A stretch of DNA of 64,000 nt from Streptomyces luomodiensis (GTDB taxonomy: Bacteria > Actinomycetota > Actinomycetes > Streptomycetales > Streptomycetaceae). The notes beneath the pieces were generated by a model that was not told where the DNA came from, searched no databases, and saw only the letters and a list, made by a program, of their open reading frames with translations. Position numbers and translations under genes: made by a program. Positions 1 through 31,959 of the stretch are shown piece after piece. Where the stretch lies: positions 7,688,001-7,752,000 of the forward strand of contig NZ_CP117522.1 of assembly GCF_031679605.1 (NCBI RefSeq). Direction: 5' to 3'. How positions within the stretch are numbered: position 1 is the first letter of the stretch; every line of letters begins with the position of its first letter.

Positions 1-1
1 C

Positions 2-4123: not shown

Positions 4124-4164
4124 CCGCCGCACCCTCTTTCGATCCCAAGGAACTGAGACAGCTC

Positions 4165-10100: not shown

Positions 10101-11243
10101 CGCGACGCCGAGATCACCCTGGGAATCTACCGCCGAGTGCCGGTTCTCATCGACGAGACAAAGAAGGCAAGCGGAAACCCCTGGGGCATCGCGTTCACGC
10201 GCATGTTCGACATGTCGAACGACTCTCACCTGTTCCGCCCCTCCGCCCAGTACGGCGAGACCTTGGACGATCTCCTCAAAGAAGGCTGGGCGCCCGACGG
10301 CAACGTCCTCTTCCGTGGTGAGGAGCGTCTGCTCCCGCTGTACGAGGCGAAGATGCTGCACTACTACGATCACCGCTTCTCCACGTACGAGAACGCCACG
10401 GAGAAGCAGCTTGCTGTGGGCACCCTGCCGCGTTTCACCGTGGAACAGCACGAGGATGCCTGCGCCGTACCGCTGCCCCGCTACTGGGTGCCGGAGCAGG
10501 ATGTCCCGACTGGCGAAGTCGACAAGAACGGCCAACCCATCATGGAGCCAGGCGTCTGCAGCCGTCTGTCCGCCAAGGGTTGGGACCGGCAATGGCTCCT
10601 CGGTTGGCGTGACATCTGCCGAGCGAGCGATTCCCGGACTGCAATCACCGCGTTCCTGCCTTTGGCTGGCGTAGGTGACAAGTTCCTGCTGGAGCTCCCA
10701 GGGGTACCTCCGGCGCTCGTTCCGCTCTTGGGTGCCTGCCAATCGTCTTTTGTCTTCGACTACTCAAGCCGTCAAAAGCTCGGCGGCACCAGCATGAAGT
10801 ACTTCACCTGGCGGCAGCTCCCCGTTCCAACCCCAGATTCCCTGAGGCCACACGCCGAGTTCGTCACCCCCCGGGTCCTCGAATTGGCCTACACCGCGAC
10901 CGACATGGCCCCCTTCGCCCGCGACCTCGGTGACACCGGATCCCCGTTCCGCTGGGACGAAGAACGCCGTGCCGTGATCCGCGCAGAGCTGGACGCTCTC
11001 TTCTTCCACCTCTACGGCATCACCCGCGACGACACCGCGTACATCCTGGACACCTTCAATGTCACCCGCGACAACGACATCAAGGCACACGGCGAGTACC
11101 GCACCAAGAACCTGATCCTCGCCGAGTACGACCGGATGGCCGCCGCTGGCCTCACCCTGGAGACCCCGCTCACCGAGGGGGAGTTCGGTACCTACCGCTC
11201 CACTCTCACTCCGCCCCCCGGTCAGGGCCCCCGCCACGGCTGA
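7119..11243 (+). CDS. Eco57I/DrmMI-like N6-adenine DNA methyltransferase
   Basis: A 1,374-aa protein starting at ATG 7119, which overlaps the helicase stop (TGATG), so it is translationally coupled. The SAM-binding motif I is CDPACGSGDFLVAS (~residue 517), followed by GVDLNPMAVELAKVSLW. The catalytic motif IV is GNPPWERVKL (~792). Together they mark a gamma-class N6-adenine methyltransferase of the Eco57I/PglX/DrmMI type. The long N-terminal region contains LLVYRLLFVFVAEDRN-like helices typical of large Eco57I-type enzymes, and the C-terminal ~400 residues are probably for target recognition. No PD-(D/E)XK motif is evident, so restriction would depend on partner proteins. It probably marks self DNA for the DISARM-like genes. 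A BREX PglX identity is less likely because no PglZ is present. Confidence 0.87.
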   Translation: MSAATRTALAFTAVTTVGGLLPADMLLRIAEARNLPGTKSADYGLPASVPVRDEAERAWEYLKPLWRDLRAALPSDPATGAPAADPTGRAGTDWLAQLFRKLDFGALTEVGAAGIPADSDPEKRFLVSHRHGPALVHLIPWNQELDKRPAAGQVPAQSMLQDCLNRTEAHLWAVLTNGRRLRLLRDSSSFSTAAYVEFDLEAIFDGELFSEFVLLYCVLHASRFEVAEGTAASGCWLEKWRTEAVTSGARALDQLRLGVQNALTVLGTGFLRHPDNARLREDVDPKALRDALLRLVYRLLFVFVAEDRNALLDPEADERQRDAYERYFSSARLRERARRRQGTAHGDQYAALRIVLDALGTEGGRPELALPGLGGLFTHTDADAPLDGLKLSNESLLAAVRHLAQVRDPGARRWRAVDYKHLDAEELGSVYESLLELEPKHSATDRSFELIEVAGNSRKTTGSYYTPSSLIECLLDTTLDPVINDAIKRGEQRATAAGRPDPTDDIVDELLSLTVCDPACGSGDFLVASARRIAKHVASVRERNPEPTVDAMRHALHEVVARCVYGVDLNPMAVELAKVSLWIEAMEPGKPLGFLDAHVKHGNGLIGATPKLLAEGVPDDAFKPIEGDDRKYASGLVKRNKAQRGGQDELLFDADVLPGNERYAAELARITAAPADSLEQVRAQESAYRASTGSAAYVQDLHAADAWCAAFVWPKHEGAPEAPTDQVFRALRGRDQSPVPDATHAEILRLRDEYRFFHWHLEFPEVFAVPESGVGVQGGTGWAGGFDAVVGNPPWERVKLQEQEFFAQRDPRIAEAKNAAARKRLIAELRDDRDGARLYAEFGAAKRRAEGESHFLRTSARFPLTGRGDINTYAVFTETDRTLTGPRGRTGVIVPTGIATDATTQFFFRDLITKGHLAALYGFENEEKIFPGVDHRVNFALFSMVGSGSPDEPISIAFRVRQTEQIPERSYPLTGRDIQLLNPNTGTCPVFRSRRDAEITLGIYRRVPVLIDETKKASGNPWGIAFTRMFDMSNDSHLFRPSAQYGETLDDLLKEGWAPDGNVLFRGEERLLPLYEAKMLHYYDHRFSTYENATEKQLAVGTLPRFTVEQHEDACAVPLPRYWVPEQDVPTGEVDKNGQPIMEPGVCSRLSAKGWDRQWLLGWRDICRASDSRTAITAFLPLAGVGDKFLLELPGVPPALVPLLGACQSSFVFDYSSRQKLGGTSMKYFTWRQLPVPTPDSLRPHAEFVTPRVLELAYTATDMAPFARDLGDTGSPFRWDEERRAVIRAELDALFFHLYGITRDDTAYILDTFNVTRDNDIKAHGEYRTKNLILAEYDRMAAAGLTLETPLTEGEFGTYRSTLTPPPGQGPRHG

Positions 11244-13613: not shown

Positions 13614-14318
13614 TTACGCAGTTGAATCCCCCGATTCAGGGCCGAAGGGCACCTCGTCCCCGCGATCATCCTCGGCCCAGCTCGACGGGGGCTGTCCGAA
13701 GATGGCACGTGCGGACTTGATCGTCAGTCGCCCGAGGACATGGTTGCCGCCGGCGCCGAGTGCAGCACCGATTCCCAGTGGCACCTGTTTGCTCAGCACC
13801 AGGACCCCCTGCTGGGTCCCGTACTTGGTGACGAACCGTGGTCCCAGCACCTTGTTGACCCGGTTGATCGCGCTCATGGGGATCGCACCGACGATGCGCC
13901 GTGCCCAGTAGGGGCCGGTGCGCCCGATGGCTTTGTCCAGAACCCGCACCGCCCCGTCGCCGAGGAGGACGGTCAGGACCAGGAGCTTGCGTCGCTCGAA
14001 GTCCTCAGGATGTATGGCATGAACCTCGGCCAGCGACAGCGTGTACAGCACTGACGCCTCGGTGAAGACCATGGCATCGGCCAGAGCCGTCGGGATACCG
14101 GCGCCGGGCACGATCCCTGCCGCGCCGGACGCTCCTCCGGACGCGGTGATGCCGGCGAGGTAGTAACGGTCCAACCGACGAATCAACTCCTGTGGAGTCT
14201 CGCCGGAATAGACTCGCCGCAGGCGCTCGACATTCTTTCTCGCCAGCGGCTGCTGGGCGACCAACGCCTTGTCGAGAGCCTGCTGAAGCATGCTCTTGAC
14301 GTCATCGGCCTTGCTCAT
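13614..14318 (-). CDS. EcsC-like membrane-associated protein
   Basis: A 234-aa protein, MSKADDVKSML onwards. Residues ~45-95 contain long Gly/Ala-rich hydrophobic stretches (YYLAGITASGGASGAAGIVP, then IPTALADAMVFTEASVLYTL), and a second hydrophobic stretch (VPLGIGAALGAGGNHVLG) lies near residue 190. This alternation of glycine-zipper helices and amphipathic segments resembles the EcsC family, found in bacterial defence and transport settings. ATG 14318 has only a weak upstream AGAGGA. It is 113 bp downstream of the SF1 helicase gene on the same strand and could be a late member of the drmAB operon. Function unknown; the EcsC assignment is moderate. Confidence 0.6.
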   Translation of the reverse strand: MSKADDVKSMLQQALDKALVAQQPLARKNVERLRRVYSGETPQELIRRLDRYYLAGITASGGASGAAGIVPGAGIPTALADAMVFTEASVLYTLSLAEVHAIHPEDFERRKLLVLTVLLGDGAVRVLDKAIGRTGPYWARRIVGAIPMSAINRVNKVLGPRFVTKYGTQQGVLVLSKQVPLGIGAALGAGGNHVLGRLTIKSARAIFGQPPSSWAEDDRGDEVPFGPESGDSTA

Positions 14319-14431: not shown

Positions 14432-15556
14432 TCACTTCATCTGCACCCACCCGTGCAGCCCCTCCAGGTGGCGCGGCAGCCGGCTGCCCTGCCAACCCAG
14501 CACCAGCCGCTCCCGTGCACGGGTGACCATGACGTAGTACGCCATGCGCAGGGTCGCCGACGTGGGGTCGGTGGCGGCGTCGGTCTCGGTGTCCGCGATG
14601 ACGACCGTGTCGAAGTCGAGGCCCTTGGTGCTGGCTCGGTGTACGAGGACGACGCCGGGGCGGGCGAGGTCGAGGTCGCGGTAGCGTCCCGAGGAGGCCG
14701 CCGAGCTGTACAGCTGGGGTTGGTGGGCGAGCCCGGCGCGTTCGAGGCGGCGCATGAGATCAGCCGCAGTGCGCGACGAGTTGGTGATGACGCCGATGCG
14801 GTCCTTCGGGTGCCGGGCCGCCATGGTGGCGATATGGCCGACGACGTCCTGGTTGCCGGAGTAGTGTCGGACGACGGGCAGGGCGCCGCTGCGGAAGGGC
14901 ATCTCAGGACGGGTACCACCGGTGCGGAAGTGTTCGGCGAGGGAGGCGATCTCGCGCGTGTTGCGGTGGTTGCCGGTGACCTCTGCGCGTCCGGTGGAGC
15001 GCCCGAGGGCGTCGGTTATCTCGGTGAGGGTGCAGTTCGTCTCGGTGAGGCGTTGGCACTCGTCGGCGAAGACCGTGACGGAGGCGGCGGCGAGGCGGAC
15101 CAACCGGTAGAAGCCTGGGGACAGGTCCTGGCCTTCGTCGACGACGAGGTGGGGGGTGGCCGCCTCGTTCTGGCCGAGGGTAGCGGCGGCCTGGTGGGTG
15201 AGGGCCGTCCAGTCGAACCAGCCGTCCTGGGTGCGCGGTGCGCCGTATCCGAAGTGACGCAGGACCCAGCCGTGGACGGTGGCGGCCTCGATGGGTGCGC
15301 CCGGGACCGTGAGGCCCTGAAGGGTGTCGCGCAGGAGCTGGCGCAGGAGGTTGGAGCGCGACAGCAGCAGGGTGGGTCGGCCGGTGAGGGCGAGGTGGAC
15401 GGCGCGGTGCGCGGCGAGCAGGCTCTTGCCGCTGCCGGGTGGGCCGGTGACGACGTGGTTGCCCGTCAGCGGCAGGACGTCCAGGCAGTCGCGCTGGGCG
15501 GGGGTGAGGTCGGGGTGGAGGACGGAGGTGTGCGCGGCGGTCATGGGTCGTGTCAT
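14432..15556 (-). CDS. Compact UvrD-like SF1 helicase, last gene of sigma-drmA-drmB operon
   Basis: A 374-aa protein with a complete but minimal SF1 helicase set: Walker A GPPGSGKSLLAAHRA (~residues 38-50), Walker B VVDEGQDLSP (~140), GNHRNT (motif IV-like, ~195), KGLDFDTVVIADTE (motif V) and YVMVTRARERLVLG (motif VI). UvrD/Rep enzymes are 650-750 aa, so the 1B/2B insertions appear to be missing. ATG 15556 forms an ATGA overlap with the drmB stop, which indicates coupling. Class 1 and 2 DISARM end in drmC, a phospholipase-D-family gene; this helicase occupies that position. It may unwind or signal on DNA handled by DrmAB. Confidence 0.85.
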   Translation of the reverse strand: MTRPMTAAHTSVLHPDLTPAQRDCLDVLPLTGNHVVTGPPGSGKSLLAAHRAVHLALTGRPTLLLSRSNLLRQLLRDTLQGLTVPGAPIEAATVHGWVLRHFGYGAPRTQDGWFDWTALTHQAAATLGQNEAATPHLVVDEGQDLSPGFYRLVRLAAASVTVFADECQRLTETNCTLTEITDALGRSTGRAEVTGNHRNTREIASLAEHFRTGGTRPEMPFRSGALPVVRHYSGNQDVVGHIATMAARHPKDRIGVITNSSRTAADLMRRLERAGLAHQPQLYSSAASSGRYRDLDLARPGVVLVHRASTKGLDFDTVVIADTETDAATDPTSATLRMAYYVMVTRARERLVLGWQGSRLPRHLEGLHGWVQMK

Positions 15557-17427
15557 CCCAGGGCGGTGGCGGCCGCGTACTCGCGGCTGGCGGTGAGGAC
15601 GTCGGTGAAGTAGCCGGGGACGAGGGCGGAGCCGACGACCAAGGCGCGGTCGAGCAGGGTGTTGCCGGTCTGGCAGCTCGTCTCGGGCAGCAGGGTGCAG
15701 GCGTGGCAGGCGGCGCGGTTGAGGTTGCCGAAGCCCTGGCCGGTGTGTTCGGCGCACAGCGGGTCGGCGGAGCACCAGGCGGCTGCCTCCAGCATGCGGA
15801 TGAGTGTTTCGGCGAAGTGCGGGGCCTCGCCCTGCCGGACCAGGCCGCCGAGGGTGCCTTCCGCGTCGCCGGCGGCGGTGTAGATGAGCAGGCCGCGCTG
15901 GCCGTACTCGGTTCGCCCGTAGACGCGCTCGCGCAGGCTGGCGGTGGTGTAGCCGGAGTCGAAGGAGAGCTGGCGGATGAGCAGGTGGGCGAGGGTGTGC
16001 AGGAGCAGGAAGCGAGGGGAGAGTTCGCTGCCGAGGGTCTCGGCGAGCTGCTCGTCGCGGAACGACGCGTCGAGGTCGGTGCGGATTCCGTGGACGTGGG
16101 CCCGCACGCGGGGGTCGTTCTCCCAGGTGGTCAGGCGCTGCTCGTCGAGGGTGAGGACGATGCCCTCGCCGTAGACCTCGGTGGCGGGCAGCCAGCGCAG
16201 GCGGCCGCTGGTGTCGGCGGGTACGAGGGTGCCGCCCAGGGAGTGGCGGCGGAATCCGGTGAGTGCCCGCACCTCGCGGAGGCGGTCGGCGAGGATGACG
16301 CCGTCGATGTGCGCGTCGAGGGTGGCCCACGGCTCCTCCGCCTCGCCGTCGAGTCCGAGGCCGCCACGGCGGATCGCGAAGTCACCAGTCGGCTCGGGGA
16401 GTTCGATGGCGTCGAAGGCGTGCCACTCGTCGCGGCTGAGGTCGATCTTTCCCGACTCCGGGCGGTCGGCGGGCTGGGGCGCGGTGGAACCGGTGGCCTC
16501 GGCGATGAGCTGGTCGATGAGGCTGTCGGGGACGTGGGTGTCGTCCTGGATCATGGAGCGGAAGGTGTCGGCTCGGGGCGTATCGAGTACGTCGAGCAGG
16601 ATCGGCCAGTAGCCGTGGCCCCGGACGGCCTCCGCCGCGTCCTGCTCCGCGCGCGGCAGCTCGGCGGACTGGGGGATGTCGAGAGCCGAGTAGACAACCG
16701 GGTAGTAGACATTGCCGGCGGTGCGCTGAACGATGTGCACCTGCTGGCCGCAGGAGGTGCTCTGGTGCGGGCGCTGCCAGGGGTTGCGGCCCGAGCAGCG
16801 TCCGCCCTGGGGGCCGAGGATGTCGAGCAGGTCGCGCTCGGCGCCGCAGGGCTTGCCGTCTTTCCCGGTCGCTCCGCAGTGCACCGAGAGCGCCTCGAGT
16901 CCGGAGGCGCGGTCGGCGACGCGGAAGCTGAGCCGGCGGGCCTTCCACGCGTCCTTCGCCTCGGAGCACTCGGCGCGCTGGTCGGTCGGGAGGTGGGAGT
17001 GGGCCCAGTACCACCAGTCGACGTCGTCGAGGTGGCCGTCGGCGCAGATGCGGACGAACCGCATCGGCGTAAGGCGGGGCGCGGCGGCGCAGGACGTGCA
17101 GACGGGAGGCTCGCCGGGCTTTTCGTGCTCACGCAGGAAGCGGACCATGCTCCGGCAGGCGCCGCAGAACAGCCAGCCGGGGAAGCGGACGTAGGGGACG
17201 CCGGGGCGGTCGGGCTGGTCGTAGCGGTCGTTGAGGGTGTGGGGCGCGGCGTAGAAGCCCGTGACGCCCAGCCGGGCGGCGAGCCGTGCGGAGGGGACCG
17301 CGGTTTTGCCCTGCGGCCAGGTTTCGATGCCGGCGGCGACGAACGACTCGCCCTGGACGTCGAGGACGGCGCCGACGCCGAACGGCAGCACGGTCTGTGC
17401 CTGGCGGACCCGCAGTTTGCGCTTCAC
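15553..17427 (-). CDS. drmB: DISARM protein DrmB (DUF1998)
   Basis: A 624-aa protein. It begins with the DrmB-type signature QAQTVLPFGVGAVLDVQGES, followed by a Cx2C pair (FCGACRS, CTSCA; ~residues 88-112) and an RICADGHLDDVDW motif. The DUF1998 core is LLLHTLAHLLIRQLSFDSGY (~475). Clustered C-terminal cysteines (CSADPLC, ACHACTLL, SCQ) suggest a zinc site. GTG 17427 overlaps the drmA stop (GTGA), with GGGAGCAGGAA upstream. DrmA and DrmB form the conserved DISARM core complex that engages incoming unmodified DNA. Length and motif order fit DrmB well. Confidence 0.92.
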   Translation of the reverse strand: MKRKLRVRQAQTVLPFGVGAVLDVQGESFVAAGIETWPQGKTAVPSARLAARLGVTGFYAAPHTLNDRYDQPDRPGVPYVRFPGWLFCGACRSMVRFLREHEKPGEPPVCTSCAAAPRLTPMRFVRICADGHLDDVDWWYWAHSHLPTDQRAECSEAKDAWKARRLSFRVADRASGLEALSVHCGATGKDGKPCGAERDLLDILGPQGGRCSGRNPWQRPHQSTSCGQQVHIVQRTAGNVYYPVVYSALDIPQSAELPRAEQDAAEAVRGHGYWPILLDVLDTPRADTFRSMIQDDTHVPDSLIDQLIAEATGSTAPQPADRPESGKIDLSRDEWHAFDAIELPEPTGDFAIRRGGLGLDGEAEEPWATLDAHIDGVILADRLREVRALTGFRRHSLGGTLVPADTSGRLRWLPATEVYGEGIVLTLDEQRLTTWENDPRVRAHVHGIRTDLDASFRDEQLAETLGSELSPRFLLLHTLAHLLIRQLSFDSGYTTASLRERVYGRTEYGQRGLLIYTAAGDAEGTLGGLVRQGEAPHFAETLIRMLEAAAWCSADPLCAEHTGQGFGNLNRAACHACTLLPETSCQTGNTLLDRALVVGSALVPGYFTDVLTASREYAAATALG

Positions 17428-20400
17428 TTTCCTGCTCCCGTCACAGTGATCTGGCATTCGCGGTCCACACTCCGCATGGAATTGAGGGTTTCCCACAGGC
17501 CGTAGCGCTGCTCGAAAACCTTGAGCAGGTTCCGGTGACCCTTCCCCTGGCTGCGGTAGAAGAGGTCCTTGCTCTCGGCGGCGGCTGTCCGGGCCTCCCG
17601 GTACCAGTCGGCCAGGAGATTGCCGAGTTCGGTGCGGACGTCGGCCCGTACGCCGTCGGCGCGGGCTCCCGTGGCGCCGCTCTCCGCGATGGCGGCGCGC
17701 TCGGCGAGGGCGTCGGCGATCCGCTCGGCCTCTTCCTGGTGGCGGGTGATGTGTCCGGCCTGGTTCTCGGCGGCCAGGCCGAGCCGGTGGCGGACCAGGA
17801 TGACGAGCGCGGCGTGGAGGGCGCGGTGGCGGGCGGGTGGGGACCAGGGGGTGACGCTGGCGGGTTCGACGTAGCGGTAGAGCGCCCGGTGGTAGTCGAA
17901 GAAGGTCTCGTAGTGGGACCGGTCGCGCGGGCGGGTGGCGTTGAAGTAGGTGACGACGAGTCCGGGCACGCGGTGGCGGCCGACGCGGCTGGTGGCCTGG
18001 ATGTACTCGGCGGTGGTCTTGGGCTGGCCCTGCATGAGCAGGTAGGCGAGCCGCTTCACGTCGACGCCGACGGAGAGCATGTTGGTGCACGGGAGGAAGG
18101 ACACCGACAGCGGATCGTCCCAAGGTTTTTCGAGGCGGTCGAGGAGGATGGGCTGCTCGGCGCGCGGCAGGTTGCTGGTCAGTTCCTGTACGTCGCCGTG
18201 GCCGAGGGCGCGGACGCCGGCGCCTTCGTCGAGGCCCCGGAGCTGGGCGGGGATGTCGTCGCCGGCCGCGGTGACGGTGCGGCCGAGTTCCCGCAGGCTG
18301 TGGTGGTAGGCGACGAGGGTCCAGTAGTCGTCGCGGTGTTCCTCGGGGAGCTGGTGGACGCCCTGGAGCATGGCCGCCGTGGTGGCGACGGCGCCACGGC
18401 CCGCGGTGTGGCCCTGCGCCATGACGCCCAGGTAGAGGCGGCCGGGGCGGCCGGTGTCGGGGACGGCGAAGAAGCTGTCGCGGGCGTCGAGTCCGGACGG
18501 CGGGAAGAGCTGGACGTCCTGGTGGTGCAGGGCGCGGACCTGTTCGGCGGAGCGCCGGATGGTGGCCGTGGCGGCGACGACCTTGGGCGGGCGGCCGTCC
18601 GGGCCTGTGCACAGCTCCAAGATGGCCGCCTCGTAGAGGCCGACGGTGGTGCCCAGCGGGCCGGTGAGCAGGTGCAGCTCGTCCTGGATGATCAGGGACG
18701 GGGGCGGGTTGCCGACGCCGCTTTCGGTGCCGGTGGCGGCGCCGAAGAAGCTGCCGGATTCGGACTCCCAGGCGAGCCGGGCGAACTTGTCGACGGTGCC
18801 GAGGACGAAGGTGGGCGGGTGCCGGTAGAGGTGCTGGTCGACGACGGCGACGGGCAGGACGTCGTGGAAGGCGCACTTGTCGCGCGGGCAGTAGAAGGCG
18901 AAGGCGTCCGCTTCGGCGCGGATCCCGTAGTCGGCGCGGACGCTGGACCGGGTCGGCGGCAGGATGCGGGTGCCGCACCACGGGCAGCGGTCGAGGATGA
19001 AGACGTCCTCGGGGTGGGTAGCCTCGCGCTGCTGGTCGAAAGCGTCCTTGGCCTTCTGGAATGTGTTGGGGGTGGTGGTCTCGCCGACCCACAGGCCGAT
19101 GGTGATCGGCTTGCCGCCGAGGCCGAGTCCGGGCTCGTCGCGGCGGAGGTGTTCCAGGGCGCAGATCGTGGTGGCGGCGCGCTGGAACTGCTGGGTGGTG
19201 AGCAGGCTGAGGGTGTAGCGGCTGAGCACGGTGGTCCCGCCGCCCTCGTCGCGGAGGCGGCGCAGGGCGATGGTGAAGGCGGCCAGGAGCAGGTACGCCT
19301 CGGTCTTGCCACCGCCGGTGGGAAACCAGATCAGGTCGGTGGTCGCGCGGTCGGGGTGGTCGGGTTCGGCGACCCCGTCGAGGGCGAGGAGGAAGAAGGC
19401 GAGCTGGAAGGGGCGCCAGGTGGCGTCGGGGTCGACGGGCGGGTCAAAGGCCACGGGCTCCGAGCGCGGGCGCCGCAGGCCGGCCTGGTCGGGGGCGGAG
19501 TGCCGCATCTGGAGCAGCATGGCGCGCTGCGCGATGCGGAAGGCGGCCAGCAGTTCGGGGCGGTCCGGGTCGCACAGGGTGCGCACGCCGGCCTCGATGC
19601 GGGCGACCGCCTGGTGGACACGGCCGAGGATACGATCCGCGGCCTCCCGCCCCCAGGGCGGCACGTCGACGGACCGCTGGCCCACGTACCAGGCGTGGTA
19701 GGAGGCGGCGAACTCCGCGAGCTCCTCGCGGAGTTGGTCGCCGCTGACAGCGGGGTCGGCCAGGTGGGCGAGGCGGAGCGCGGGTGCGTCGAGCGGGCCG
19801 CCGGCCCGGATGGCGGGCACCTCGGCACGTGGCAGGACCTCGGAGGCGAGACGTTCCACGGCGCCGTCCTCGCCGCGGTCCTCGCGGACGGCGCAGCCGT
19901 GGCCGACCGCATGAGTGACGACATGCCGGTACTGCAGGCGTAGTTCGCGCTCCTCGGGGTCCCGGCTGGCGAGCCGGACGCTGGGGTACGGCAGCACGGC
20001 GCCGTCGGCGGGGCGGACCGTGAGGCCGCACTGGAAGAGCATGTCATCCCAGCTCGGCGCCTTGCCGTCGGAGCCATCGTGGCGGGCCGTGTTGACCAGG
20101 GCCACGGTGATGAGCGTGCCGTCGCCGTAGGAGCGGCGGCGCAGCCGGATTTCCGCGCGGCCGTCGAGGACGGGCACGGTCTCCCGGTCCGGGCCGATGG
20201 TGTGGGTCTCGGCCGCGAGGGGGACACGGCGCCAGTGCCGGCCGCGCCCGGGTTCGCTCCGCCGGGTCTCGTAGCAGGCGGCGGCGCAGCCCACCTCGAT
20301 GTGTGCGGCGTTGGTGTAGAAGCTGAGGCCGAGGGAGGCGGGTAGCCAGCTGTTGGTCTCGGGCACAGGGTCGGGGGCCGGATCCACGTCGGGGGCGTCC

Positions 20401-20591
20401 TGCTCGGCTCCGGGCGCATCGGGGTCGTCGGCCGCGAGGGCGAGCTGCCGCTCCAGCTCTGCCTGTTGCGGGTAGAGCGTGCCCATGAGGTACTGCCGGT
20501 CGGGCGGGGCATCGAGCATCTCGTCGTCATCGCCGACGGGGCCGACGAGCTGGCGAGTGAGGTAGTCGACCAGCTCTTGGCGCGGGTCCAT
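17424..20591 (-). CDS. drmA: DISARM helicase DrmA
   Basis: A 1,055-aa helicase with the DrmA N-terminal pattern (RQELVDYLTRQLVGPVGDDD, then RQYLMGTLYPQQ). Walker A is WFPTGGGKTEAY (~residue 425). The Walker B box is a variant DELH (IIQDELHLLTGPLGT, ~637), followed by ATATIRRS. Motif VI is ATSRVGRHRVPGLVVTYFNA (~870). A Cx2C pair (CPWCGT) and CPRDKC lie between motifs I and II. ATG 20591 follows AAGGA. It lies 68 bp downstream of the sigma-factor gene and overlaps drmB by 4 bp. DrmA is the ATP-dependent motor of DISARM; with DrmB it binds phage DNA and blocks its establishment. Confidence 0.93.
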   Translation of the reverse strand: MDPRQELVDYLTRQLVGPVGDDDEMLDAPPDRQYLMGTLYPQQAELERQLALAADDPDAPGAEQDAPDVDPAPDPVPETNSWLPASLGLSFYTNAAHIEVGCAAACYETRRSEPGRGRHWRRVPLAAETHTIGPDRETVPVLDGRAEIRLRRRSYGDGTLITVALVNTARHDGSDGKAPSWDDMLFQCGLTVRPADGAVLPYPSVRLASRDPEERELRLQYRHVVTHAVGHGCAVREDRGEDGAVERLASEVLPRAEVPAIRAGGPLDAPALRLAHLADPAVSGDQLREELAEFAASYHAWYVGQRSVDVPPWGREAADRILGRVHQAVARIEAGVRTLCDPDRPELLAAFRIAQRAMLLQMRHSAPDQAGLRRPRSEPVAFDPPVDPDATWRPFQLAFFLLALDGVAEPDHPDRATTDLIWFPTGGGKTEAYLLLAAFTIALRRLRDEGGGTTVLSRYTLSLLTTQQFQRAATTICALEHLRRDEPGLGLGGKPITIGLWVGETTTPNTFQKAKDAFDQQREATHPEDVFILDRCPWCGTRILPPTRSSVRADYGIRAEADAFAFYCPRDKCAFHDVLPVAVVDQHLYRHPPTFVLGTVDKFARLAWESESGSFFGAATGTESGVGNPPPSLIIQDELHLLTGPLGTTVGLYEAAILELCTGPDGRPPKVVAATATIRRSAEQVRALHHQDVQLFPPSGLDARDSFFAVPDTGRPGRLYLGVMAQGHTAGRGAVATTAAMLQGVHQLPEEHRDDYWTLVAYHHSLRELGRTVTAAGDDIPAQLRGLDEGAGVRALGHGDVQELTSNLPRAEQPILLDRLEKPWDDPLSVSFLPCTNMLSVGVDVKRLAYLLMQGQPKTTAEYIQATSRVGRHRVPGLVVTYFNATRPRDRSHYETFFDYHRALYRYVEPASVTPWSPPARHRALHAALVILVRHRLGLAAENQAGHITRHQEEAERIADALAERAAIAESGATGARADGVRADVRTELGNLLADWYREARTAAAESKDLFYRSQGKGHRNLLKVFEQRYGLWETLNSMRSVDRECQITVTGAGK

Positions 20592-20659
20592 GCACGGTTC
20601 CTTCGGATCAGAGGTATGTGTGGAGCGGGGACGGCGGGGTCCGCGGTGGACGCGGACGT

Positions 20660-22210
20660 TCAGGCGGCTGGCGGCTTCAGCCCGTGGCGGGCCAGCTGGC
20701 CGTGGAACTTCGCCCTGGCCTTTCCTTCGATCTGGCGAATGCGCTCTCGGGTGACGCCGAAGACGGCGCCGATGTCCTCCAGCGTGTCCGGCTCGTCACC
20801 GTCGAGACCGGTGCGCCGGACGAGGACGTGCCGCTCCCGCTCGGAGAGGTGCTCCAGAACGTGTCGCACGCGCGCCTGGAACTCCTTGCGGATCAACACG
20901 GCGGCGGGGCCGGGCAGTCGGCTCGGCCCGATGACGAGGTCACCAAGGGCCGTGTCGTCGCCGATGACCCGGTCCAGGGAGTCGGTGGGCCGGCTGATCC
21001 TGCGTATCCTCTCCACTTCGGCGAAGGTGAGACCGCTGACGTAAGCCACGTTGTCGACGGTCCTGGGTCGGCCTTCGCTGAGCAGCTTGCGTTCGGCCTT
21101 GGCGACCTTGGCGACCTTTTCATGAAGGTGCACGGGCAGCCGGATCAGAGTGCCTTCGTCGGCGATGGCCCGCGTGATGGCCTGCTTGATCCACCAGGTG
21201 GCGTAGGTCGAGAACTTGTAGCCCTTGGTGGCGTCGAACCTGCGGACCGCGCGCAACAGTCCGATGGTGCCGTGCTGGACGAGATCGTCAGTATCCAGCC
21301 CGCGTCCCTGGTGGTACTGCGCGATCTTCCATACGAGCCGCCGGTTGTGCAGGACGAGGCAGTCGTGAGCGCGTCGCCGCTCGTCGTCGGGGGACAGCGC
21401 CGCGATCTCCTCCTTTGGTACGTCGCGGCTGAGATGGTCGGCACTGCCGCGGAGGAGAACCGCGAGGCCCACTTCCTCCTCCGCCCTCAGCGTCACCCGG
21501 GCCGGGTTCCGGCGCCACCGGTCCGCTTCCAGCACGGCCCGCGCGGCGCGGACGGCGTCGGACAGTGTGTCGTGCGGGGCGACAGCGGCGGAACGGGTGC
21601 GCTTGGTGGTGTGCGGCGGCCTCGCGGAGGCGGCAGCCGGAGCGGGATCACGGCCCATCGGCCGGGCCTCACCGGGTACTGCCGGCTCGGCCGGTGTGCC
21701 GTGCGGGCGGGGACGGGCGATGGGGAAGTCGGCGGTCAGCTCACGGGCTTCGGCCAAGCTCAGCCGGTGGAGCCGCACCACGCCATCGTGGGCGAGCTTG
21801 CTGACGGTACCGTCGGCTGCGGCGTAGCGGGCCAGCATCCGCCGGGCCTGAGCCAGGCGTGCGGCCGCCTCGGTGGCGACGGGGCCGGGCGCGGCGGCGA
21901 CGGGCGGTAAGGCAGCCGCTTTCGCAGATGGGGCTTTGGCCCGGGTCGTGAGGTCGGAGGCGGGCGTGGGGCGGTGGTTGGCGCGACCCCGGGGCGAGGC
22001 CTTCACGCGGAGGCCGACGGCGACGAGTCCGGTGCGCAGCCCTCGCCGCTGCTCGTCGGTCGTGAGCCCGAGTCGGTCCGTTTCCAGAGCGAAGGCCCGC
22101 TGACTGATGACTCCGCCACGAGTGGCGCCGCGTTTGAGCCTTTCGATGACGGACGGCAACTCTGCCTCGATCGCGCGCCGTTCGGCGTCGGTCATCGGCT
22201 CTCTCCCCAT
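20660..22210 (-). CDS. Sigma70-family sigma factor heading the drmAB operon
   Basis: A 516-aa sigma factor with regions 2, 3 and 4. Region 2 is NRRLVWKIAQYH through FDATKGYKFSTYATWWIKQA (~residues 290-350), with the 2.4-like TWWIKQAI. Region 3 includes LPVHLHEKVAKV and SGLTFAEVERIRR. Region 4 has the helix-turn-helix TLEDIGAVFGVTRERIRQIE (~473-497). Residues ~10-60 (ERLKRGATRGGVISQRAF) look like sigma region 1.1, and a Pro/Ala-rich linker follows. ATG 22210 is preferred over 22231 because AAGGGGGG lies 4-11 bases upstream. The nearest gene is drmA, 68 bp downstream on the same strand. It could direct RNA polymerase to the island's own promoters or to phage-triggered ones. No anti-sigma gene is adjacent. 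Confidence 0.9.
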   Translation of the reverse strand: MGREPMTDAERRAIEAELPSVIERLKRGATRGGVISQRAFALETDRLGLTTDEQRRGLRTGLVAVGLRVKASPRGRANHRPTPASDLTTRAKAPSAKAAALPPVAAAPGPVATEAAARLAQARRMLARYAAADGTVSKLAHDGVVRLHRLSLAEARELTADFPIARPRPHGTPAEPAVPGEARPMGRDPAPAAASARPPHTTKRTRSAAVAPHDTLSDAVRAARAVLEADRWRRNPARVTLRAEEEVGLAVLLRGSADHLSRDVPKEEIAALSPDDERRRAHDCLVLHNRRLVWKIAQYHQGRGLDTDDLVQHGTIGLLRAVRRFDATKGYKFSTYATWWIKQAITRAIADEGTLIRLPVHLHEKVAKVAKAERKLLSEGRPRTVDNVAYVSGLTFAEVERIRRISRPTDSLDRVIGDDTALGDLVIGPSRLPGPAAVLIRKEFQARVRHVLEHLSERERHVLVRRTGLDGDEPDTLEDIGAVFGVTRERIRQIEGKARAKFHGQLARHGLKPPAA

Positions 22211-22273: not shown

Positions 22274-22354
22274 CACTGTAGGAGCACTGTGTTTACAGTG
22301 TCAACACGATCTTCGCTCCCCTTGCGTCACTTGACGGCGTCAACGGGTACAGTG
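22274..22354. promoter_or_regulatory. Candidate operator cluster between sigma-drmAB and mcrBC
   Basis: The 186-bp divergent gap holds three related elements. CACTGT at 22274-22279 recurs 11 bp later at 22285-22290, where it forms an inverted repeat with ACAGTG at 22295-22300 around GTTT; a further ACAGTG lies at 22349-22354. A second palindrome, TTGAC-GGC-GTCAA, is at 22331-22343. Half-sites one helical turn apart suggest cooperative binding by a repressor or activator. No convincing -10/-35 pair was found. Confidence 0.55.
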
Positions 22355-22396: not shown

Positions 22397-24220
22397 ATGC
22401 CGCAGCCCGACCGTCTCCCCGGCACGCCCGACTTCCGCATCGCGCTGCCCAAGGACAGCGGTGAGGCGCACGGGCATCTGCTCACCGAGTTCGGCGGCAA
22501 CGGCACGTACAAGTTCTGCCTGCACAAGGGGTCGATGGTGGCCGCCGAGGCATGGCCCGGACTCGGCGACCACGCCCGCCGCTTCCGCGCGGAGCTGCGC
22601 GCGAGCGGTGGGCTCGTGGACGCCCCCGCCGACCCCGGTCGGCCGCAGGCACCGCCGCGCTGGGTGGCGACCCGGGACATCGCCTGCAACTCCTCCTCGG
22701 CCGCCGCCGCGCTGGTGTACGGCTACGACGCCTCCGGGCCCGAGTCCTGGCGGACCGCCGAGGGTCACCCGCTCGCCGACTACCTGTCCACCACCTGGCG
22801 CGCCCCGCGCAAGGCGTGGCTGGTCCGCGGCTCCAACGTCTCAGGGCACAACCTGGTGCGGCAGCTGTGGCTGGAGGAAGGGTTCGTCTCACTTGCGGGC
22901 GCTCATCTGCCGCCTCTTGAGGAGGCCGATCCCACCAAGAGCGCGCTGCGCCGCTACGTCGAGGACGGGTACGAGGGGGCGGCCTCGTACCACCAGAAGC
23001 GGGGCCTGGTCGACGAGTTACACGCCTTCCTGACACAGATGCGGGTCGGTGACACGGTGGCCACCATCGACGGTGGCCGTCTGCTGGCCGGGCGGATCAC
23101 CGGGGAGGCCGTGCAGACCCCGTCGCCGGGCGGGTTGTCGAATCTGCGGCGGGCCGTCAGCTGGCAGACGGACAGCCACGCGTACGAGGAGCTGCCGGAC
23201 GAGGTGCGGCAGAAGCTGTCCGCGCAGCATGACGTCGTCGATCTGACCGGGGTCATGGACGCGCTGGACGAACTCACCGGGGATACGGAGCGGGCCTACC
23301 CGACGGCGGCCGGCGGCAGCGGCGAGCACCCGGGCGGCGGGGTGGCGCAGCGGGAGCCAGCACTGCCGGACATCACCGACGCCCTCGCCGCCGACCTCCT
23401 GGTCCACGACCGCGCCTGGCTGGAGGAGCTGCGCGAACTGCTTGTTGACGAAAAGCAGTTGGTGCTCCACGGCCCGCCGGGCACCGGCAAGACGTACACG
23501 GCTATGAAGCTGGCCGAGCACTTCGGCGGCGGCCCGGAACAGGTCAAGATCGTCCAATTCCACCCCTCGTACACGTACGAGGACTTCTTCGAGGGGTTCC
23601 GGCCCATGGAGGATCCCGAGACGCGGGACGTGGCCTTCCGGCTGACGGCGGGCCCGCTCCGGGAGCTGGCCGACCTCGCCTTACGCGAGGGGAACCGGCA
23701 CGTCCCGCACTTCCTGATCATCGATGAGATCAACCGCGCCAACCTGGCGAAGGTCTTCGGCGAGCTGTACTTCCTCCTCGAGTACCGGAAAAGGTCCCTG
23801 CGTCTCACGTACTCCGGGGACGACTTCTACCTACCGCCCAACCTCTTCATCATCGGCACGATGAACACCGCCGACCGGTCGATCGCCCTGGTGGACGCGG
23901 CGATGCGACGCCGTTTCGCGTTCGTGGAGCTGTCCCCGCGCACCGAGCCGACCGCCGGACTGCTCGAGCGCTGGCTGAAGCGCGAGGGCAGGAACACGGA
24001 GCCCGCCCGCCTCCTCGACGCCCTCAACGCCCGTATAGACGACCCGGACTTCGCCATCGGCCCTTCGTATCTGATGAAGCCCGGTGTCTACCGCGAAGGC
24101 GGCCTGGAACGGACCTGGCGCACGAAGATCCTGCCGTTGCTGGAGGAGCACCACTACGGCGACGGTCTCGACGTCGCCGCCCGCTACGGCCTCGACGCGC
24201 TGCGCGAGCAGCACCCGTGA
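22397..24220 (+). CDS. mcrB: McrB-type AAA+ GTPase with DUF4357 N-terminus
   Basis: A 607-aa protein. ATG 22397 is set by GGAGGG six bases upstream. Residues ~95-140 fit DUF4357 (CNSSSAAAALVYGYDASGPE, then W). Residues ~205-250 (LTQMRVGDTVATIDGGRLLAG) resemble the PUA/EVE-like modules used for modified-base recognition. The AAA+ domain has Walker A HGPPGTGKTYT (~360), Walker B FLIIDEINRANLAKVFGEL and the McrB signature MNTADRSIALVD (~489). It overlaps mcrC by 4 bp. McrB is the GTP-driven motor of modification-dependent restriction; the N-terminal fold would choose the modified base recognised. Confidence 0.93.
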   Translation: MPQPDRLPGTPDFRIALPKDSGEAHGHLLTEFGGNGTYKFCLHKGSMVAAEAWPGLGDHARRFRAELRASGGLVDAPADPGRPQAPPRWVATRDIACNSSSAAAALVYGYDASGPESWRTAEGHPLADYLSTTWRAPRKAWLVRGSNVSGHNLVRQLWLEEGFVSLAGAHLPPLEEADPTKSALRRYVEDGYEGAASYHQKRGLVDELHAFLTQMRVGDTVATIDGGRLLAGRITGEAVQTPSPGGLSNLRRAVSWQTDSHAYEELPDEVRQKLSAQHDVVDLTGVMDALDELTGDTERAYPTAAGGSGEHPGGGVAQREPALPDITDALAADLLVHDRAWLEELRELLVDEKQLVLHGPPGTGKTYTAMKLAEHFGGGPEQVKIVQFHPSYTYEDFFEGFRPMEDPETRDVAFRLTAGPLRELADLALREGNRHVPHFLIIDEINRANLAKVFGELYFLLEYRKRSLRLTYSGDDFYLPPNLFIIGTMNTADRSIALVDAAMRRRFAFVELSPRTEPTAGLLERWLKREGRNTEPARLLDALNARIDDPDFAIGPSYLMKPGVYREGGLERTWRTKILPLLEEHHYGDGLDVAARYGLDALREQHP

Positions 24221-25476
24221 CCGTGCCCGTGCCCGTGAGCGAGGTGACGCTGCGCGAGTACGGGCCCGCCGTCTCCGTCCCGCTGGGCGCCGGGGCCGGG
24301 CGGGCCCTCGCCGCCTCCGGCATCCTGCAGAGCGCCACCCCGGATCCCGGCCGGGACGGGCACTGGCTGCTGCGGGCGGGCAGCCGGGTCGGCGCCGTGC
24401 GCACGCCCGGCGGACCGGTCGTGCGGATCGTGCCCAAGACCCCGGTGAGCCGGCTGTTCTTCCTGCTCGGGTTCAGCCTCGACCCGGCGCGCGCCTGGCG
24501 CGACAGCCGGGAGGGCACCGTCGACACCGGCGCCTACGATGACGTCGTCCCCGGGCTCGCGCACGCCGTGGAGCGGCAGATCGACGCGGCGCTGCGGCAG
24601 GGGGTCCTCCAGGGCTACCAGGAGGTCGAGGAGACCGCGCTGGTCGTGCGTGGCCGGATACGCGAGGCCGAGCAGATCCGGCGGCACTTCGGCCGTACGC
24701 CGCCCGTGGAGATCATCTACGACGCGTACACCGCTGACACCGCCGAGAACCGCATCCTGCGCGCCGCAGCCGAGCGGCTGCTGCGGCTGCCGGGCGTCCC
24801 CGGGCCCGTCCGGCGGCGCCTCGCTCACCAGCGCGTACGTCTGGCCGACGCCTTGCCGCTGTTACCGGGACAGGAACTGCCGAGGTGGCAGCCGTCCCGG
24901 CTCAACTCCCGCTACCAGCCCGCGCTGCGGCTCGCCGAGGCCGTCCTGCGCGGCTCCTCACCGGAACATCGGCTCGCCGGGCCGGAGCCGCTCGCCGTGG
25001 ACGGCTACCTGCTCGACATGAACAAGCTGTTCGAGGACTTCGTCACCGTCGCCCTGCGCGAGGCCTTTCGCGAGCACGGTCTGACCGCGCGTCTCCAGGA
25101 TCTCCACCACCTCGACACAGCGGGTCTCGTACGGATGCGCCCCGATCTCGTCGTGCGCACCGGGGACGGCCGCACCCCGCTCGCCGTGGTCGACGCCAAG
25201 TACAAGGTCGAGAAGGCCGACGGGCTCCTCAACGCCGACCTGTATCAGGCGCTCGCGTACGCCACCGTGCTGGGGCTGCGCGAGGCGCACCTGGTGTACG
25301 CCGCCGGACGGCAGCCCGAACGCCGCCACGAGGTGCGCGGGACGGCGGCGGGGCCGGACAGCCAAGGGATGCACCTGTACCAGCACAGTCTCGACCTCTC
25401 CCGCGAACCAGAACAACTCCTGTCGGCCGTCAGGGACGTCGCCGGACGGCTGGCGTGGACGGCGTCACCTTCGTGA
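24217..25476 (+). CDS. mcrC: McrC nuclease subunit
   Basis: A 419-aa McrC-family protein. GTG 24217 overlaps the mcrB stop (GTGA). The N-terminal beta-rich part (LREYGPAVSV, RIVPKTPVSRLFFLLGF) is the region that contacts McrB. The C-terminal PD-(D/E)XK nuclease core is MRPDLVVR (~residue 308) followed by LAVVDAKYKVEKAD (~326), so the Asp, Asp and Lys expected for catalysis are present. It stimulates McrB GTP hydrolysis and cuts DNA that carries the modification McrB recognises. Phages with modified bases, or foreign methylated DNA, would be the targets. Confidence 0.93.
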   Translation: MTVPVPVSEVTLREYGPAVSVPLGAGAGRALAASGILQSATPDPGRDGHWLLRAGSRVGAVRTPGGPVVRIVPKTPVSRLFFLLGFSLDPARAWRDSREGTVDTGAYDDVVPGLAHAVERQIDAALRQGVLQGYQEVEETALVVRGRIREAEQIRRHFGRTPPVEIIYDAYTADTAENRILRAAAERLLRLPGVPGPVRRRLAHQRVRLADALPLLPGQELPRWQPSRLNSRYQPALRLAEAVLRGSSPEHRLAGPEPLAVDGYLLDMNKLFEDFVTVALREAFREHGLTARLQDLHHLDTAGLVRMRPDLVVRTGDGRTPLAVVDAKYKVEKADGLLNADLYQALAYATVLGLREAHLVYAAGRQPERRHEVRGTAAGPDSQGMHLYQHSLDLSREPEQLLSAVRDVAGRLAWTASPS

Positions 25477-25512
25477 TCACGCAACCCCGTCAGGCTGAAA
25501 GAAAGGAACCCC

Positions 25513-27648
25513 ATGCCCCGGCTCGCCTTCGCCCAAAGCTTCTGGGACGGCTACGAGACGTTGGAGAAGCCGGTGCGAGCCGGAGTACGCAAGGCCATGG
25601 CGAAATTCCACACCATGAGCGCCGCCGAACTCAACGCCGATAAGGGACTGCACCTGGAGTCCGTCGAGAACGCCCGTGACCGGCGGATGCGCACTATCCG
25701 CGTCACCGACTTCTGGCGGGGCGTCGTCCTCGCCCCCGACGACGGCAGCGATGTGTTCCTGCTGGTCAACGTTTTGCCGCACGACGACGCCTACACCTGG
25801 GCGGCGAAGCGTCTGTACAGCGCGAACTCCGCGACCCGGGCTCTGGAGGTACGCGACGCCGTCGCCCTGGACGAGCTGACACCGCTGTACGAGACGGCCG
25901 CGCGCACGGCTCCCCGACTGCTGTTCGCGCACGTCTCCGACGGCACGCTGCGCGAGCTGGGCATCGACGATCAGGTGCTGCGCGCCGCGCGCTCCCTGGT
26001 GGACAAGGCCCAGCTGGAAGCGTTCGCCACGCTCCTGCCGGAGGACCAGCTGGAGGTGTTGCAGTACCTCGCGCAGGGCTTCAGTCCGGAAGAGGTCTAC
26101 CGCGATGTCGTCGCCGTCCGCCGGCCCGCCGACGCGCCTGCCGAGCCGGTCGAGGACCTGGCCACGGTCATCGCCAACACGTCCGCCCGTATCCGGCTGG
26201 TCACCGGGGGGCGGGAGCTGGCGGAGATCCTTGAGAAGCCGTTCGCGGCCTGGCGGATCTTCCTCCATCCCTCCCAGCGGCGTGTCGCCTACCGCACTTC
26301 CTACGGTGGCCCCGTCCAGGTCACCGGCGGCCCCGGGACGGGGAAGACGGTGGCCGCCCTGCACCGGGTGGGGCACCTGCTCGGCCGTTCCGCCGACGGC
26401 CGGGTCCTGCTCACCACGTACACCAACGCGCTGGCCGCCGGGCTACGTGAGATGCTCGGCCTGCTTCTCGACGGGGACGAGAAGCTGCTGGCCCGGGTCG
26501 ATGTGACGACCGTCGACGCCTACGCGCACGCCGTCGTGCGCGCCACGTCGGCGGCCCCGCCCAAGCCCATCGGCGACCGGGAACAGCGGCAGCTGTGGGA
26601 GAAGGCCGTCCATCAGCTCGGCCTGCCGTTCACCGCCCAGTTCCTGGCTCAGGAGTACCGGCACGTCGTGCTCGGCCAGAACCTCCGCGATCTCGACGCC
26701 TACCTCGGCGCGAGCCGCCGCGGCCGCGGCACCGGCCTCGGCCCTTCGCGCCGCCGGGAGGTGTGGCGGGGCGTGGAGCGGTTCGAGCAGCTCCTGCACG
26801 ACCGCGGCGAGACCACGCACCTGCGGGTCTGTGCCCACGCTGCGGAACTCCTCGCCGGTGAACCGGCCCCGTACGCCCATGTCGTCGTCGACGAGGCACA
26901 GGACCTGCACCCCGCACAGTGGCGTGTGCTGCGCGCCGCCGTGTCCCCCGGCCCCGACGACCTGTTCGTCACCGGTGACCCGCACCAGCGGATCTACGAT
27001 TCCCGAGTGTCGCTCGCCTCCTTGGGCATCGCCACGGCCGGCCGCAGCTTCCGGTTGCGCGTCAACTACCGCTCCACCGAGGAGATACTCGCCTGGTCGG
27101 CGCGGCTCCTCGCGCCCGTCACCGTCGACGCACTCGAAGGCGAGGGGACGGACTCGCTGGCCGGATACCGCTCGCTGCTGCACGGGCGCCGACCCCAGGC
27201 GCAGGGGTACGCGACCCGGCAGCAGGAGACCGAGGCCCTGGTGGGCCGGGTACGGGCGCTGCTCGCCGAAGGCCTCGCACCGCATGAGATCGGCGTGTGC
27301 GCGCGCTTCAACCTCTCCCTGGACGCGGCCGAGGAGAAGCTGAAGGCCGCCGGCATCCCGGTGCTGCGGGTCAAGGGGCAGACCACGCGGGGAGCGGATG
27401 GGGTACGGCTGGCGACGATGCACGCGATGAAGGGGCTGGAGTTCCGGGCGGTCTCCGTCCTCGGGGTCAGTGAGGGCGCTGTCCCGTTCGCCCGTGAGAT
27501 CACCCCGCGCGAGGCGGACCCACTGCAGCACGACGCCGACCTGCTCCGGGAACGCTGCCTCCTCTTCGTCGCCTGTACGCGCGCCCGCGAAGCCCTGAGC
27601 GTGACGTGGAGCGGGACCGCGAGCCCGTTTCTGCCGCGCGCCGCCTGA
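25513..27648 (+). CDS. RelE-like domain fused to UvrD/Rep-type SF1 helicase
   Basis: A 711-aa protein whose ATG 25513 lies behind AAAGGAACCCC, 36 bp after mcrC. Residues 1-110 resemble a RelE/ParE toxin fold: RLAFAQSFWDGYETL, then LESVENARDRRMRTIRVTDFW and VLPHDDAYTWAAKRLYSAN. After an ~150-residue linker comes a full SF1 helicase: Walker A GGPGTGKTVAALH (~271), VVDEAQDLHPAQW (~459), VTGDPHQRIYD, VNYRST, MHAMKGLEF and FVACTRAREAL. The toxin-like domain may be a DNA/RNA-binding module rather than an active RNase. Its place after mcrBC suggests a joint restriction operon, but it could act alone. Confidence 0.87.
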   Translation: MPRLAFAQSFWDGYETLEKPVRAGVRKAMAKFHTMSAAELNADKGLHLESVENARDRRMRTIRVTDFWRGVVLAPDDGSDVFLLVNVLPHDDAYTWAAKRLYSANSATRALEVRDAVALDELTPLYETAARTAPRLLFAHVSDGTLRELGIDDQVLRAARSLVDKAQLEAFATLLPEDQLEVLQYLAQGFSPEEVYRDVVAVRRPADAPAEPVEDLATVIANTSARIRLVTGGRELAEILEKPFAAWRIFLHPSQRRVAYRTSYGGPVQVTGGPGTGKTVAALHRVGHLLGRSADGRVLLTTYTNALAAGLREMLGLLLDGDEKLLARVDVTTVDAYAHAVVRATSAAPPKPIGDREQRQLWEKAVHQLGLPFTAQFLAQEYRHVVLGQNLRDLDAYLGASRRGRGTGLGPSRRREVWRGVERFEQLLHDRGETTHLRVCAHAAELLAGEPAPYAHVVVDEAQDLHPAQWRVLRAAVSPGPDDLFVTGDPHQRIYDSRVSLASLGIATAGRSFRLRVNYRSTEEILAWSARLLAPVTVDALEGEGTDSLAGYRSLLHGRRPQAQGYATRQQETEALVGRVRALLAEGLAPHEIGVCARFNLSLDAAEEKLKAAGIPVLRVKGQTTRGADGVRLATMHAMKGLEFRAVSVLGVSEGAVPFAREITPREADPLQHDADLLRERCLLFVACTRAREALSVTWSGTASPFLPRAA

Positions 27649-29364: not shown

Positions 29365-29901
29365 GGTTTCAGTGTACACGGGCTGTCGCCCATATTCGTG
29401 ACCAATATCCGTTAACTACATACACATGCCGATGTCAAAATCTTGCGTGTACTGGACCGGTGTGATGTCACGTGTTCTCGACCAGTCGCCCTCGCTCTGG
29501 TCCTGAGTGCAGGGTGGCCCGATTCCTTCCGGCTCCCCGCTGACGCGGAGGTGACGCGCAACCAAACGGGCAACAAAGTGATAATCCGTGCGCTGCCTGT
29601 CAACGTCTGGGTGGCGAAAGCACGCTGATGGACCCACGAAGCAGACGCTGCGCGAGCTTGAGCCTGCAGCTACGTCGGCGTCAGCACGGTCGTGAGGGGC
29701 GTCGACCGTGGGGATGTGCCGTTCCTCGGGCCGACGGCGGCCTCGGCGCGGCCGCTGTCGGCGGGATGGCCCGCGTCGGCACCCTGTGCGGTGGGGGCCG
29801 AGCGGACGGACGGGGTCGGCCCGCTCGTGATGGTGGGGAAGTGGTGTCACAAGATCCGCGCGTACCCGGTCTAACGATTGAGCCGGGAAGGAGGACGCCG
29901 T
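29365..29901. other. Intergenic region without a supported gene
   Basis: This 537-bp gap separates the defence island from the ECF sigma genes. The first ~100 bp are AT-richer than the surroundings (around 29395-29445, with GTTAAC and CATACACATG) and include a GTGTACAC palindrome at 29373-29380, which suits a promoter/operator for the helix-turn-helix methylase. Short open frames on both strands have no recognisable protein pattern. No RNA gene was recognised. Confidence 0.4.
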
Positions 29902-31816: not shown

Positions 31817-31959
31817 GATCCTGAGGTCTCCGTTCCTCCGGTTGTGGCTGTCCCGTGACAGGAGCACACGGTTGTCGCACGGCTACGGTACGGCGGGACG
31901 GCCGAGGCCGTCCCGCACCTCGGACGCGCTCGGTCGCGGAAGCACCGGCAGCCGTGTCG

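Follow-up and report, generated by a model that had tools for sequence, protein, structure and literature searches.

We analysed a stretch of 64,000 nucleotides from Streptomyces luomodiensis (bases 7688001-7752000 of the single 10.04-Mb contig NZ_CP117522.1; hereafter the window), in which a sigma-70 factor is encoded in one operon with homologues of the DISARM proteins DrmA and DrmB. The operon lies on the minus strand. It begins with the gene of a defence-associated sigma-70 factor of 516 amino acids (20660..22210, minus strand), recognised by Pfam, family search, tree and an N-terminal model, and continues through drmA (17424..20591, minus) and drmB (15553..17427, minus) to a compact superfamily 1 (SF1) helicase of 374 amino acids (14432..15556, minus). 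A 68-bp gap follows the sigma gene and the next two junctions are 4-bp overlaps, exactly as a previous reading of this DNA, made from its sequence only, had described. The drmA product is a YprA-type superfamily 2 helicase, with PTGGGKT and DELH motifs seen by eye, that lacks a DUF1998 domain of its own; drmB encodes a DUF1998/MZB protein scoring above the NCBIfam DrmB_fam cut-off. The small helicase, with Walker A GPPGSGKS and DEGQD motifs by eye, is the marker gene of the module. Two plus-strand defence cassettes flank the operon, McrB-McrC-UvrD (22397-27648) and an ARMADA-like cassette (1-11243).

We examined how far the sigma gene is conserved beside these genes. We aligned the N-terminal stretches of six sigmas and searched the alignment against a genome collection of 84,980 species, one genome per species. 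The search gave 48 loci; one (L059) is a remnant with no sigma match, leaving 47 sigma loci. In 45 of the 47 the sigma gene is followed, without a change of strand, by drmA, drmB and the small helicase, and in the other two (L024, L047) the contig ends before drmA. The small helicase itself is present in 25 of 200 Streptomycetaceae genomes, and all 25 neighbourhoods were inspected. Twenty-three of them hold drmA, drmB and the helicase together, and sigma is alongside in 23 of these 23, which bears out the conserved synteny with drmA on which the sequence-only reading depended. The remaining two helicase loci (L170, L171) are remnants without drmA. Two loci of this census of 23, G456 and G503, have a helicase match that is spread over two frames, and in G456 so is the match of drmB; these genes are possibly frame-shifted.

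Starting from DrmA, the DrmA model matched in 45 of 101 Streptomyces genomes (E<=0.001). We inspected 20 of these Streptomyces regions, 18 picked toward weaker or window-like matches and two as comparison. Ten have the helicase, and sigma is present in 10/10 of those; eight are without the helicase, and sigma is present in 0/8. The two others (L101, L102) are cut by the contig and show no sigma in the part that remains. Likewise, none of nine DrmA regions drawn from other families in the phylum gave a sigma match; one of the nine, L172, has the small helicase, and L175, a DrmA region of another family, gave a weak helicase match only. The sigma-, helicase- and DrmA-based surveys partly overlap in genomes. 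Together the results show that the sigma clade is inherited strictly with the drmA-drmB-helicase module of Streptomycetaceae, and that sigma, DrmA, DrmB and the SF1 helicase form a distinct defence module of this family, set in an island that also holds McrBC and ARMADA.

The module occurs in four architectures, which we call alpha, beta, gamma and delta; the 23 census loci comprise 10 alpha, 5 beta, 5 gamma and 3 delta. In alpha, the window type, a sigma of ~500 amino acids is followed by drmA-drmB-helicase, and McrBC-UvrD is divergent in nearly all loci. Beta sigmas carry an extra C-terminus past the sigma core, long in many, and ARMADA is divergent in most. The beta sigma of Streptomyces fungicidicus plasmid p1 (L011:11437-15258) reaches 1273 amino acids in total with a C-terminal extension of ~780; by eye, a repeated stretch of ~115 amino acids and a long coiled coil follow its core. 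In the delta loci (L093, L164, L165) sigma is divergent from drmA. The seven gamma loci (L091, L096, L097, L166-L169) join the sigma core and a part resembling the PADLOC protein PDC-M33A in one open frame, with a weak helix-turn-helix match. This fused frame, predicted at 1133-1208 amino acids in the loci measured, is divergent from an operon of NERD-helicase, drmA, drmB and helicase. Behind it, in the two gamma loci that were scanned (L091 and L097), come a gene of ~320-330 amino acids and a DUF6339 gene. The gamma C-terminal part looks GHKL-like by eye, with no match to the Pfam GHKL model. A gene piece 77% identical to it was also seen at the left edge of L109 (L109:3-587, minus strand), a DrmAB locus that lacks the helicase, ~7.6 kb from drmA. 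The description of sigma as leading the operon therefore holds for alpha and beta and fails for gamma and delta, where sigma is divergent.

In a tree of sigma cores, the sigmas of all four architectures form one group apart from RpoD and Hrd sigmas, with support 100/99. The tree is built on 52 sigma cores, from 98 found, under a per-group limit; the RpoD sigmas number 12, the Hrd-type sigmas are the three of the window genome, and no true MzaA is included. Sigma distances correlate with those of DrmA (r 0.93), DrmB (0.94) and the helicase (0.96) across 60 distinct loci, and 0 of 999 permutations were as high; within alpha only (26 loci), sigma and DrmA distances correlate at r 0.65, again with 0/999 permutations as high; species descent contributes to these correlations. 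Relatives of the window sigma are nearly all from Streptomyces. One is plasmid-borne, the sigma of S. fungicidicus p1, and relatives of the sigma N-terminus were found in none of the viral contigs or phage records.

Regions 2, 3 and 4 of the window sigma are recognised as three Pfam domains above cut-off. They are preceded by an N-terminal extension of ~280 amino acids, predicted to form two small helical domains. For region 1.1 there is only a weak fold match, to 5mww; Pfam at E<=1 gave no match, and profile comparison with hhalign and hmmsearch was not significant. The AlphaFold model of the full-length sigma is poor (mean predicted local distance difference test score, pLDDT, 67; predicted template modelling score, pTM, 0.29), and the N-terminal model has mean pLDDT 73 and pTM 0.35. 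Fold searches turned up nothing telling for the second N-terminal domain; this is not evidence for a new fold. We aligned nine defence sigmas with the three Hrd-type sigmas of the window genome and one RpoD. The defence sigmas retain the STYAT.W, Q and TRER.RQ residues of regions 2.3-2.4 and 4.2 as in Hrd sigmas. We take these residues to be those that read the -10 and -35 elements, so that the window sigma should read housekeeping-type promoters. In region 2.2, seven of the nine defence sigmas have H, and the other two V and W, at a position that is E in the four Hrd/RpoD rows and where this E presumably contacts core polymerase.

We examined whether the operons of the island have promoter elements in common, a test that the sequence-only reading had proposed. 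The predicted promoter of the sigma operon (22275..22304, minus strand) consists of TTGACA, an 18-bp spacer and TACAGT, a pattern with 0 matches in 100 window shuffles. An inverted repeat, GTTGAC-ACT-GTAAAC (22291..22305, minus), lies over its -35 element, and a second copy on the mcrB side, CTTGAC-GGC-GTCAAC (22330..22344, plus), lies 3 bp before TACAGT. The proposed shared motif was found: a palindrome of the form ~GTTGAC-N3-GTCAAC occurs at the sigma promoter and ahead of both the McrBC and the ARMADA operons; the copy at ARMADA, the perfect palindrome GTTGACGGCGTCAAC, stands outside the window, 106 bp before the predicted ARMADA gene start. Both elements are conserved. TTGACN-N17/18-TANNNT is present in 30/33 alpha and 21/22 beta sigma upstream regions, and on the mcrB side the palindrome precedes TANNNT by 3 bp in 30/32 alpha loci.

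We counted palindromes that differ from GTTGAC-N3-GTNAAC at no more than one position and lie in the 300 bp upstream of a gene, taking identical upstream regions once and excluding loci without a recognisable start. In alpha the palindrome precedes sigma in 33/33 and mcrB in 32/32 regions, and in beta it precedes sigma in 22/23 and the ARMADA gene armC in 22/22. It also lies ahead of the N6-methyltransferase homologue in 16 of 22 alpha loci, and the window's own N6-methyltransferase (27706-29379) has no palindrome upstream at this threshold. The control genes gave 1/33 for alpha drmA, 0/25 for beta drmA and 1/31 for alpha uvrD; block shuffles, in which two-base blocks are swapped and which are not strict dinucleotide shuffles, expect no more than 0.08 palindromes per set. 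These counts are non-independent: alpha sigma and mcrB mostly share one intergenic stretch, usually with two copies, and beta sigma and ARMADA share one stretch whose single copy enters both counts. A greater distance separates sigma from mcrB in L021 and L032, and there each has a separate copy. Furthermore, ARMADA lies away from sigma in alpha, and the palindrome precedes ARMADA there, at -91 to -123 in 12/12 further alpha genomes with an ARMADA match. Among distant ARMADA loci (L263-L268), 5/6 are without a palindrome near the gene; in L263 a one-mismatch palindrome (L263:10242-10256) stands 30 bp before the ARMADA open frame.

Across the window genome, the one exact match to the extended pattern is the sigma promoter. 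Three more places match at one mismatch, one of them 106 bp upstream of the predicted ARMADA gene start; the other two are beside a marR-like gene and inside a coding gene (genes identified by eye). The genome-wide count is not above control (5 matches at <=1 mismatch vs 4 for the reversed pattern); placement and conservation, rather than number, carry the case for a shared motif. By our own estimate, were the three additional places scattered over the 10 Mb at random, a palindrome would fall within 300 bp of any of some four island operons with a chance of the order of 1 in 3000; conservation is the stronger argument.

The cassettes that share the palindrome are neighbouring defence operons. 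Divergent from sigma lie an mcrB-like AAA protein gene (DUF4357 and AAA_5; 22397..24220, plus), mcrC (24217..25476, plus; Pfam McrBC, 166 bits) and the UvrD-type helicase of the McrBC cassette (25513..27648, plus), followed by the N6 adenine methyltransferase (27706..29379, minus). On the other side, the ARMADA-like cassette consists of a YprA-type helicase resembling armC (1..4123, plus), its 5' part outside the window, a BrxHII/DrmD-like helicase resembling armA (4219..7119, plus) and a PglX/DrmMI-like methyltransferase resembling armB (7119..11243, plus). The YprA gene starts 2210 bp before the window (from G000:C1:7685791 to window position 4123) and encodes ~2110 amino acids in total; by eye the protein begins with a Ser/Thr protein kinase part, which recurs in close ARMADA relatives, and DruE models score best for its YprA part. 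Downstream of the small helicase is an accessory gene resembling the PADLOC candidate PDC-S29 (13614..14318, minus; PADLOC), found in some alpha loci only. Among NCBIfam models, those of the RNA-polymerase recycling motors HelD/HelR match the small helicase best, at 34.5-38.6 bits, far under cut-off. The window also holds two further sigma-like genes (30872-31867, minus, and 29878-30843, plus); one has regions 2 and 4 and is like the extracytoplasmic function sigmas, and the other has region 4 only.

We suspect, with a probability of roughly one half, that the sigma serves the island as its own transcription factor, a dedicated and self-regulated immune sigma. The sigma operon would start from the TTGACN-N18-TANNNT promoter, seen in the sequence and conserved in alpha and beta, whose -35 element overlaps the palindrome. 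Since the same palindrome stands at the sigma, McrBC and ARMADA promoters, these operons would answer to one regulator. The sigma would join core RNA polymerase and drive its own operon, and perhaps its neighbours, in a positive feedback; a protein bound to the palindrome would keep this feedback off, and infection would lift the block. By analogy with DISARM, DrmA-DrmB and the small helicase would then move together on incoming DNA. The sigma might also, as the sequence-only reading conjectured, sustain transcription once phage proteins have disabled the housekeeping sigma.

Several observations weigh against a dedicated island sigma. None of the gamma (0/7) and delta (0/3) loci has the palindrome, though sigma is present. 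The sigma promoter has an ordinary housekeeping form and looks readable by a housekeeping sigma; by eye, the -10 of the ARMADA promoters is weak, and the mcrB site lacks an evident -35 at the usual distance. The palindrome also stands before ARMADA in six of seven kinase-ARMADA loci from genomes of the 200-genome set without a helicase match (L256-L261, not L262), so the reader of the palindrome need not be the sigma. Either the module was recently lost from these six genomes or another protein reads the palindrome there; L258 and L259 hold truncated beta-sigma remnants beside it. As for co-inheritance, L172, from an actinobacterium of another family, has NERD-helicase, DrmA, DrmB and a small SF1 helicase with no sigma match, and species descent contributes to the distance correlations. 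The L172 locus lies near an NgoMIV-type restriction enzyme gene. The sigma as sole reader of the palindrome is weakened by the six genomes just named. The proposal that it is the switch of the island, made by the sequence-only reading, thus survives in part: the clade is tied to drmA and the motif is shared, but the motif also stands before ARMADA where no helicase was matched, and the promoter is housekeeping-like. The palindrome may instead serve a repressor as its operator, and the sigma operon would be one of this repressor's targets. The N6-methyltransferase is a candidate binder. Its homologue in L256 has an HTH-like (helix-turn-helix) start by eye and is divergent from ARMADA, with the palindrome between them.

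Such a repressor is central to one alternative, in which the sigma is under the island regulator and transcribes elsewhere in the chromosome, and transcription of the island falls to the housekeeping sigma and is blocked by a repressor sitting on the palindrome, for example the N6-methyltransferase with its HTH-like start or an unlinked protein. The palindrome in genomes without the helicase marker, the housekeeping form of the sigma-operon promoter and the position of the palindrome over a -35 element or spacer, which suits a repressor, all point this way. Yet a sigma acting elsewhere would have no evident reason for strict co-inheritance with DrmAB and the helicase across four architectures, and we regard this reading as unlikely. 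Slightly better placed, though still doubtful, is a role of the sigma inside the defence complex rather than mainly as a gene switch: as a subunit it would dock DrmA-DrmB-helicase on promoters or RNA polymerase and so let the system sense or attack DNA under transcription, such as phage genes, or a hijacked polymerase. The sigma remains beside the drmA operon even when it is not the leader, as in gamma and delta; the extended beta and gamma sigmas suggest that large proteins incorporate the sigma core as one of their modules; the small helicase is weakly HelD/HelR-like; and region 2.2 has H, or V or W in two of nine, where Hrd and RpoD have E. Conversely, the DNA-reading residues are conserved as in an ordinary initiation factor, and L172 keeps DrmA, DrmB and the helicase without sigma. 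That the genes are neighbours by chance, or by hitch-hiking in a hot spot of defence genes, seems very improbable to us: defence islands do gather unrelated genes, and the distance correlations could partly reflect species descent, but the neighbourhood is kept in 23/23 and 45/47 loci, sigma is missing from 17 other DrmA loci, and the association holds through four rearranged configurations.

The dedicated island sigma and the subunit may also be one protein. We raise, as a speculative and rather unlikely combination, that this immune sigma clade is a fixed partner of DrmA-DrmB-helicase that is both the island switch, through the palindrome, and a physical part coupling the machinery to RNA polymerase to watch transcription. 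These findings bear on how defence islands stay quiet and switch on together, and make the question directly testable in ordinary Streptomyces strains. A conserved element is common to several defence operons, including one that is no direct neighbour of the sigma, and the whole island may be one control unit. They also raise the possibility of a sigma factor as part of an immune machine.

The neighbouring cassette corresponds in gene order to a known system. Its order of YprA helicase, BrxHII-like helicase and PglX-like methyltransferase is that of ARMADA type I, as defined in a 2025 preprint (Bell et al., PMC12458937), in whose main text the word 'sigma' occurs only in a supplier's name. The likeness concerns the neighbour and not the sigma operon itself, and the YprA protein here carries an N-terminal kinase part.

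The sequence-only reading knew of no DISARM operon with a sigma factor of this kind. A sigma factor in a defence operon is not unprecedented: an earlier case is mzaA of mzaABCDE, as given in PMC9523054. The two share a sigma-70 factor encoded among defence genes, and MzaA is the best NCBIfam model for the window sigma at 243 bits, a match to the sigma core only and far under the cut-off of 800. Among the matches listed for 246 actinobacterial genomes, ordinary RpoD-type sigmas score ~346-369 bits on this model and none exceeds the cut-off. We rejected membership of the window sigma in MzaA: housekeeping sigmas score higher on the model, and the match is no proof of kinship. No mzaB-E gene was found in a PADLOC scan of eight neighbouring genes (41 to 27648). 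Among the open-licence papers listed in our searches, judged from titles and the starts of abstracts, none describes a sigma factor with DrmAB, which is weak evidence of absence from print.

The gamma loci are a possible bridge between DrmAB modules and the PADLOC candidate system PDC-M33. The part of the L097 protein after the sigma core matches M33A at 67.5 bits and the nearby DUF6339 gene resembles M33C weakly at 23 bits, the M33 models being known here through these matches alone; the window locus has neither.

The closest relative is DISARM. DISARM classes 1 and 2 are built from drmA, drmB, drmC, drmMI or drmMII, and drmD. The operon has DrmA and DrmB homologues in the same order and in overlapping genes: DrmB scores 407 bits on NCBIfam DrmB_fam (cut-off 240), and DrmA scores 666 bits on PADLOC DrmA and 869 bits on NCBIfam DrmAS, just under the cut-off of 950. 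Neither the operon genes nor the neighbouring open reading frames scanned gave a match to the phospholipase D-type DrmC, and the operon contains no methyltransferase that could be drmMI or drmMII, the nearest being that of ARMADA (7119-11243, opposite strand) and the separate N6-methyltransferase (27706-29379). Thus the label DISARM, used in the sequence-only reading, is too strong, and the module is DISARM-related, not DISARM. Together our data describe a DrmAB system in which an SF1 helicase and a sigma factor stand in place of drmC and the methyltransferase of DISARM.

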